DNA from: Candidatus Cloacimonetes bacterium HGW-Cloacimonetes-2
GTDB taxonomy: Bacteria; Cloacimonadota; Cloacimonadia; Cloacimonadales; Cloacimonadaceae
DNA: 64,000 nt
Assembly (NCBI GenBank): GCA_002842035.1
Contig: PHBP01000006.1
Location: forward strand, 85,688-149,687
Direction of reading: 5' to 3'
Shown: piece after piece, positions 237 through 57,108 of the stretch
Numbering within the stretch: position 1 is the stretch's first letter
Layout of the letters: every line of letters begins with the position of its first letter
Translations under genes and position numbers: made by a program
Notes under the pieces: generated by a model
The model's database searches: none
The model's input: only the letters and a program-made list of their open reading frames with translations
What the model was told of the DNA's origin: nothing

Positions 237-382
237 TTTGCTGATTCGTTCGCAGGAATGACGGAGGGGGTCGTGTTGGGTGTTAGGTCACGTAGGAGCG
301 ACATCTTGTCGCTCAGATAGCTGTGCGTCAGGATGACGCACCTACAATCGGCACTTTGCTGATTCGTTCGCAGGAATGACGG
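237..382 (+). repeat. 28-bp direct repeats flanking a hairpin element
   Basis: An identical 28-bp sequence lies at 237-264 and 355-382, beginning TTTGCTGATTCG and ending AATGACGG. The pair brackets the double hairpin at 292-345. The GCAGGAAT in each copy is the reverse complement of ATTCCTGC at 206-213, which resembles the small ATTCC/GGAAT inverted repeats common between bacterial genes. Confidence 0.6.
292..345 (-). repeat. Double-hairpin intergenic element, copy A
   Basis: Two perfect 8-bp hairpins sit back to back: GAGCGACATCTTGTCGCTC (296-314) and GTGCGTCAGGATGACGCAC (323-341). They are enclosed by GTAG (292-295) and CTAC (342-345), which can pair. It is the reverse complement of the copies at 8099, 35817 and 56908. 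Those close with GTGG/CCAC, so the closing stem differs here by a compensatory G-C to A-T change. Confidence 0.75.
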
Positions 383-8098: not shown

Positions 8099-8151
8099 GT
8101 GGGTGCGTCATCCTGACGCACAGCAACTGATCGACAAGATGTCGCTCCCAC
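8099..8151 (+). repeat. Double-hairpin intergenic element, copy B
   Basis: GTGG (8099-8102) opens the element, then the perfect hairpin GTGCGTCATCCTGACGCAC (8103-8121), a 10-base linker, a second hairpin with one mismatch (GATCGACAAGATGTCGCTC) and CCAC (8148-8151), which pairs with the opening GTGG. Same orientation as copies C and D. Confidence 0.75.
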
Positions 8152-35584: not shown

Positions 35585-36050
35585 TCCTGATTTGCCACAG
35601 CGAACGCAGATCGCAACGTGTTTTGACTTGAACAAATGCCTGTGCAATCTATCGCCGATGATACATTTTATTACCGGCATTTGTTTGAGTTAAAAACGAA
35701 AACCCGGCGCATCATCTCGGCTATCACTGCTTGCATTGTTTTTAACTCATAGTTCTGCCGAGAATGACCAGCTTGTCAATCCAAGGATACCAAGGTAGAA
35801 TTATAAGTCAAAACATGTGGGTGCGTCATCCTGACGCACAGTCCTTCCGAGCGACAAGATGTCGCTCCCACATCACCACTACACCACTTCATCACTGCGC
35901 GAAGCGCTCTCCTTCCTCCTTTTCTCCTTGTTTAAATCTCCCCTATTGAATCCCAAGGCAAAACCCTGGCACTTCTCTGGAGATCCCCTTGTCGCCACAA
36001 GGGGATCACTAGGGGATCACTAGGGGATCACCAATGGATTCAAGCAGGGA
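35585..36050 (+). repeat. Modular intergenic repeat, composite copy C (longest)
   Basis: Comprises a 110-bp upstream module (35585-35695) closely matching 56796-56904, with arms CAAATGCC and GGCATTTG. A unique stretch of about 110 bp follows, then the double hairpin (35817-35871), GCGCGAAGCGC, the CTCCTTGTTTAAATC linker, and the tail with CCCCTTGTCGCCACAAGGGG and three 11-bp GATCACTAGGG units (35976-36050). No gene was found in 35344-36210. Confidence 0.78.
35817..35871 (+). repeat. Double-hairpin intergenic element, copy C
   Basis: GTGG, perfect hairpin GTGCGTCATCCTGACGCAC (35821-35839), linker AGTCCTTCC, perfect hairpin GAGCGACAAGATGTCGCTC (35849-35867), CCAC. All three stems are intact, making this the best-formed copy. 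Confidence 0.8.
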
Positions 36051-56795: not shown

Positions 56796-57108
56796 TCCTG
56801 ATTTGCCACAGTGATAGCAGATCGCTACCTGTTTTAACTTAAACAAATGCCTGTGCAAACTATCGCCGATGATACCTTTTCATCGGTATTTGTATGAGTC
56901 AAAACATATGGGTGCGTTATCTTGACGCACAGTCCTTCCGAGCGACAAGATGTCGCTCCCACACCACCACTCCTTCCTCCTTTACTCCTTGTTAAAACCT
57001 CCCCTATTGAATCCTAAGGCAAACCACACGCACTGCACTGGCGATCCCCTTGTCGTCACTAGGGAATCACTAGGGGATCACTAGGGGATCTCCAGAGCAT
57101 TCAAGCAG
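56796..57108 (+). repeat. Modular intergenic repeat, composite copy D
   Basis: Comprises the 110-bp upstream module (56796-56904, with CAAATGCC and GGTATTTG arms), the double hairpin (56908-56962), the CTCCTTGTTAAAACC linker, GGCAAACCAC and the tail with three 11-bp ATCACTAGGGG units (57036-57108). Compared with copy C it lacks the 110-bp stretch between the first two parts. Further on, TTGACG at 57220 may be the -35 of the downstream operon, but its -10 is unclear. No gene lies in 56780-57318. Confidence 0.78.
56908..56962 (+). repeat. Double-hairpin intergenic element, copy D
   Basis: First hairpin GTGCGTTATCTTGACGCAC (56912-56930) holds one T-G pair that would be a G-U wobble in RNA. The linker AGTCCTTCC is the same as in copy C. 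The second hairpin GAGCGACAAGATGTCGCTC (56940-56958) is perfect. The closing stem is TGG/CCA. Confidence 0.75.

Follow-up and report, generated by a model that had tools for sequence, protein, structure and literature searches.

Inverted REP doublets linked to a Y1 transposase gene in a Candidatus Cloacimonetes genome

REPs have been defined by a GT(A/G)G head and a palindrome, by their arrangement as inverted pairs that flank rayt genes, and by complementary mutations in their stems (PMC2817692). A GTAG-tagged REP superfamily is described from several phyla (PMC3733652). It has been proposed that REPIN doublets are the units that are moved or copied (PMC3116915), and a guide role in cleavage has been assigned to the GTAG tetranucleotide (PMC8266576). 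In the E. coli transposase, residues W94, Q95, E/D100, H101, and R104 contact or accompany this guide (PMC6006769).

In this study, a window of 64,000 nucleotides from the 2.5 Mb genome of Candidatus Cloacimonetes bacterium HGW-Cloacimonetes-2 (G000) was analysed together with a congeneric genome of a sister species (G001). A first-pass annotation of the window had described four copies of a sequence in which two hairpins lie side by side and the ends can pair. These were present at all of the positions given, with a GTRG-like tetranucleotide on the outer side of each hairpin and far above chance (Table 1), and proved to belong to a family of 49 complete paired doublets genome-wide, all in one arrangement. 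This count, obtained with patterns that allow mismatches and require pairing, excludes four reverse-order pairings and may miss more decayed copies. The consensus in one orientation is GTRGG-TGCGTCA-TCC-TGACGCA-CAG...YG-AGCGACA-RGA-TGTCGCT-CCYAC. Exact matches to the two hairpins numbered 22 and 33 in the whole genome; reversed control patterns gave none, which rules out chance palindromes. REPs of the GTAG superfamily typically number tens to hundreds, dispersed and for the most part extragenic. Here, three of the 49 doublets fall within stop-free frames of 200 codons or more, all three in the locus of the transposase gene itself; the other 46 are outside such frames. We conclude, with a probability of about 0.93, that the copies are REPINs (BIMEs), that is, non-autonomous inverted REP doublets spread by the RAYT (TnpA-REP) encoded at 456 kb of contig C2. 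The family is a new representative of a known class of elements in a new host lineage.

Table 1. Doublet features in the window (window coordinates) and RAYT homologues that share long open frames with host domains
Feature	Position	Strand	Remarks
REPIN copy A	292..345	-	Genome C1:85979-86032; opposite strand to copies B-D; GTAG at both feet; CGTC-tagged repeat on both sides
GTAG guide tetranucleotide, copy A second REP	292..295	+	Direct sequence reading
Copy A REP hairpin, AGCGACA type	296..314	+	8-bp stem, TCT loop
Copy A REP hairpin, TGCGTCA type	323..341	-	8-bp stem, TCC loop
GTAG guide tetranucleotide, copy A first REP	342..345	-	Direct sequence reading
REPIN copy B	8099..8151	+	GTGG at both feet; second hairpin mismatched (ATCGACA/TGTCGCT)
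REPIN copy C	35817..35871	+	GTGG at both feet; both hairpins perfect
REPIN copy D	56908..56962	+	Feet ATGG/GTGG, closing stem broken; first hairpin C-G to T.G
RAYT homologue L062			In frame in Eco57I/PglX-like methyltransferase
RAYT homologue L204			Eco57I/PglX-like methyltransferase; same phylum as G000, same site as L062
RAYT homologue L063			In frame in UDG family 4
RAYT homologues L065, L066			MmeI methyltransferases of two genomes, same inter-domain position
RAYT homologue L067			C-terminal fusion to MenD-like frame
RAYT homologue L068			In frame in RecG

Both halves of the doublet, read from the outside in, have the form GTRGG followed by nGCGnCA-TCY-TGnCGCn, and they differ by two compensated base pairs (T-A versus A-T at stem positions 1 and 5). 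Judged by these sequences, a single REP is present twice, in inverted orientation, and this unit, with a short spacer between its halves, was found in 49 of 49 cases. GT(A/G)G stands 5' of the short palindrome, with GTRG at 47 of the 49 left feet (the exceptions are ATGG and TTGG) and at 47 of the 49 right feet. In these features, as well as in extragenic dispersal, clustering near a RAYT gene, and complementary stem changes, the doublets resemble the REPINs of Pseudomonas fluorescens SBW25 (PMC3116915) and the BIMEs of enterobacteria and Stenotrophomonas (PMC2817692). They differ from both in having new stem and loop sequences, in belonging to another lineage, in numbering only about 50 copies, and in that the REPs of a pair diverge at positions that would leave four near-fixed mismatches in a long hairpin. 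The GTRG tag, 6-9 bp stem, 3-nt loop, and pairing in opposite orientation also agree with the GTAG-tagged superfamily (PMC3733652); the major tag here, in contrast, is GTGG, and the stem family was not found among those described in the text of that paper.

The first-pass annotation had taken the complementary ends for a compensatory closing stem that makes a three-way junction. Its reading of GTGG/CCAC in copies B and C and of GTAG/CTAC in copy A was correct, and 8-bp hairpins are indeed present in copies A and C, but not in the second half of copy B. The end of copy D, given as TGG/CCA, is really ATGG/CCAC with an A.C mismatch, i.e., a shortened stem without compensation, and the hairpin change in that copy is from C-G, not from T-A. 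Over all 49 doublets the foot combinations were GTGG/GTGG (29), GTGG/GTAG (6), GTAG/GTAG (5), GTAG/GTGG (5), and four others, so that copies with mixed ends (GTGG/CTAC or GTAG/CCAC, 11) outnumber those with GTAG/CTAC (5). Among 36 distinct doublets, the variable inner pair was G-C in 22, G-U in 6, A-U in 4, and A.C or another combination in 4; the outer pair was broken in two. The types of left and right guide were weakly associated (Fisher p = 0.048 for all copies, 0.033 with one per locus), which we count against the REPIN explanation. Four of the five GTAG/GTAG copies, including copy A, share one flanking repeat, and two members of the same flank group carry GTAG/GTGG. Because of these shared flanks, the apparent compensation traces mostly to one ancestral pair of guides, the Fisher association is explained without covariation of the closing stem, and essentially no covariation beyond shared ancestry is left there. 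In the predicted best single-stranded DNA fold of copy A the GTAG is unpaired and the closing stem is absent on both strands; in copy C the stem contributes only about 0.2 kcal/mol.

The decisive evidence on the closing stem came from solitary REPs. About 20 dispersed single REPs of G001 keep GTRG although no partner REP hairpin was found downstream of them, three solitary REPs of G000 retain GTGGG, and GTRG was present in every correctly oriented REP read in G001. Since the tetranucleotide is kept without a partner, it is best read, from these sequence comparisons, as a four-base signal recognized by the transposase rather than as a stem selected for pairing. The ends are complementary because two GTGG or two GTAG guides face each other in inverted REPs, and the four window copies seemed to covary because inverted guides are complementary by construction.

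Selection on folding, as proposed in the same annotation, stood for the hairpin stems. Near the transposase gene, TGCGTCA/TGACGCA is replaced by TCCGTCA/TGACGGA, and in the second stem AGCGACA/TGTCGCT by AGCTACA/TGTAGCT; the copy at C1:165328 has the stems AGCGTCA/TGACGCT and AGCTACA/TGTAGCT. Between G000 and G001, the outer pair of one REP changes from G-C to A-T, and in the other REP TGCGTCA becomes CACGTCA, with the partner strand following. These changes support true covariation of the stems, although the independent events are few and fall below an R-scape-grade test; such covariation is expected for folded single-stranded DNA. One long cruciform or hairpin was considered and rejected: across the 36 distinct copies it is 77.9% paired, with no excess of covariation over shuffles, versus 97.1% for two hairpins plus ends. 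The long form carries four near-fixed mismatches (in 34 or 35 of 36 copies), which favours a two-hairpin "clover".

Fold z-scores of the window copies range from -3.9 to -6.0. They remain low when the copies are folded as RNA (-3.9 to -5.2), and copies A, B, and D are situated 3' of genes, where transcription is plausible; together with the covarying stems, this is what would be seen if the doublet were a structured non-coding RNA with a three-way junction, kept by selection on the transcript. That explanation is nonetheless very unlikely. Covariation does not extend to all helices, the closing stem being the one that is not maintained in the pair counts, and GTRG persists without its partner. 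A search of Rfam returned no family for the doublets, and the plus strand of copy A folds as RNA into a different, long hairpin. Copies are also found in either orientation, within translated frames, and as tandem arrays, as expected for REPs. Most likely, the folded object is single-stranded DNA presented to a transposase and not a structured RNA; the folding proposed in the annotation holds for the hairpins and fails for the closing stem. A MITE of an ordinary DDE insertion sequence would likewise be a short, non-coding inverted-repeat element with many copies. Here each half has its hairpin in its interior, GTRG stands at the ends in place of long terminal inverted repeats, and the flanks that were read showed no apparent target-site duplication; linkage to a Y1 HUH transposase gene refutes this reading, to which we give practically no weight.

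Somewhat more room, though still little, is left for a cruciform or protein-binding DNA element (for gyrase, IHF, or transcription termination) that is kept for a function in the chromosome or at mRNA ends and whose spread is only historical. Nearly all copies are intergenic, such roles have been reported for REPs (PMC6006769, PMC3733652), and a function of this kind can coexist with the REPIN explanation. A housekeeping role is hard to reconcile with few, patchy copies: among 41 related genomes the hairpin family was found only in G000 and G001, apart from one lone match with a single mismatch in G027. The copies are also tied to one transposase gene, which is unexpected for a chromosome-wide function.

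The REPIN explanation is supported by this linkage. G000 holds one Y1_Tnp gene (228 codons, L001:1432-2118), with the same doublets on either side of it; its product exceeds the Pfam cut-off for the Y1 domain and contains NHVH. The homologue in G001 (192 residues, 57% identical where the two align) has three doublets on one side and four on the other, so that in both genomes the RAYT sits between cognate inverted REPs as in a REPtron. Both proteins keep NHVH and W-Q-x4-D-H-x2-R, with the spacing of the E. coli residues cited above. REP_Tyr_transpos was the best NCBIfam match for both, yet the scores (45.9 and 64.3) were below the 80-bit cut-off, which counts against a RAYT/REPIN reading. A PDB sequence search with the G001 protein gave only weak, irrelevant kinase matches. 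By its motifs, on which the assignment rests, the pair resembles TnpA-REP subclass 2.4 (PMC6006769), with NH[IFV]H and WQ, REP insertions inside the transposase gene, and occurrence in scattered phyla. Unlike that subclass (YIxNNP), the G001 protein has YIQNHD as its Y motif, and in G000 the insertion removes the Y motif. The G000 protein diverges immediately after EYFDHIVR, where a decayed REP starts; the tyrosine column holds a serine, and REP-encoded sequence takes the place of the catalytic tyrosine that follows HUH in G001 and other homologues. With its Tyr-bearing C-terminus lost to the REP array, the G000 RAYT is predicted from sequence to be catalytically dead. This appearance also counts against the REPIN/RAYT reading and implies that the family probably no longer moves by its own enzyme. 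The 49 REPINs remain beside a sole RAYT that is tyrosine-less, apparently as an orphaned family. G001, with an active-looking RAYT, and G000, with many copies but a RAYT that lacks the tyrosine, form a natural pair for studying whether REPINs can persist without their transposase. What seemed a new folded RNA thus falls into a well-understood class of elements, and a REPIN/RAYT pair is added in a poorly sampled lineage.

By analogy with the enzymes of E. coli, Stenotrophomonas, and Marinomonas, the RAYT would bind the REP hairpin in single-stranded DNA, GTRG would guide the choice of cleavage site, and the doublet would be moved or copied at replication forks. Flanking sequence is common to many doublets (clusters of 21, 7, and 6 copies by the left flank), so some of the copies arose when larger mosaic repeats spread or were duplicated in tandem, and this is counted against a purely RAYT-driven spread. 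An identical repeat, CGTCATTCCTGCGAACGAATCAGC on the minus strand, lies on both sides of copy A (240-263 and 358-381); it resembles the CGTC-tagged palindromes of PMC3733652 and accompanies other GTAG copies. Copy D and the G000 copy at C1:150968 share long flanks (approximately GAGTYAAAA on the left, CTCCTTTACYCCTTGT on the right), which belong to a more extensive intergenic repeat of mosaic structure. At several contig ends (the end of G000 C1 at 248.9 kb, the start of C13, and L144 on G001 C78), single REPs or REP doublets form tandem arrays, which probably break the assembly.

In both G000 and G001, the RAYT gene separates two methyltransferase genes of an R-M-like operon (REPtron loci L089, L150, and L198); the second of these is of Eco57I type (Pfam). 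Downstream of this pair G000 encodes an 836-residue protein with a T5orf172 domain. The REP arrays around both RAYT genes are translated as peptide repeats. In a related copy of the operon at 330 kb of contig C2 of G000, the two genes are adjacent and no RAYT is present. It is already known that REPs occur inside genes, including repair genes (PMC3733652). The literature searched contained no description of an entire RAYT in frame within a methyltransferase, a weak sign of novelty. The RAYTs from our search of the phylum, nearly all of them on draft or metagenome contigs, mostly occupy ordinary frames of 190-270 codons, so carriage within genes is the habit of a subset. We see about even odds that this RAYT lineage lives within or between DNA-modification genes of its host and is translated there as a guest, carried in an intein-like manner without splicing. 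If confirmed, the in-frame carriage of RAYTs by genes for methyltransferases and repair proteins would be a less familiar means of housing and expressing a transposase. All seven homologues in long frames (Table 1), which are close relatives of the G000 RAYT, keep HUH and the downstream tyrosine motif, some of the chimeras are flanked by REP-encoded peptide linkers, and one methyltransferase insertion site is shared across two phyla.
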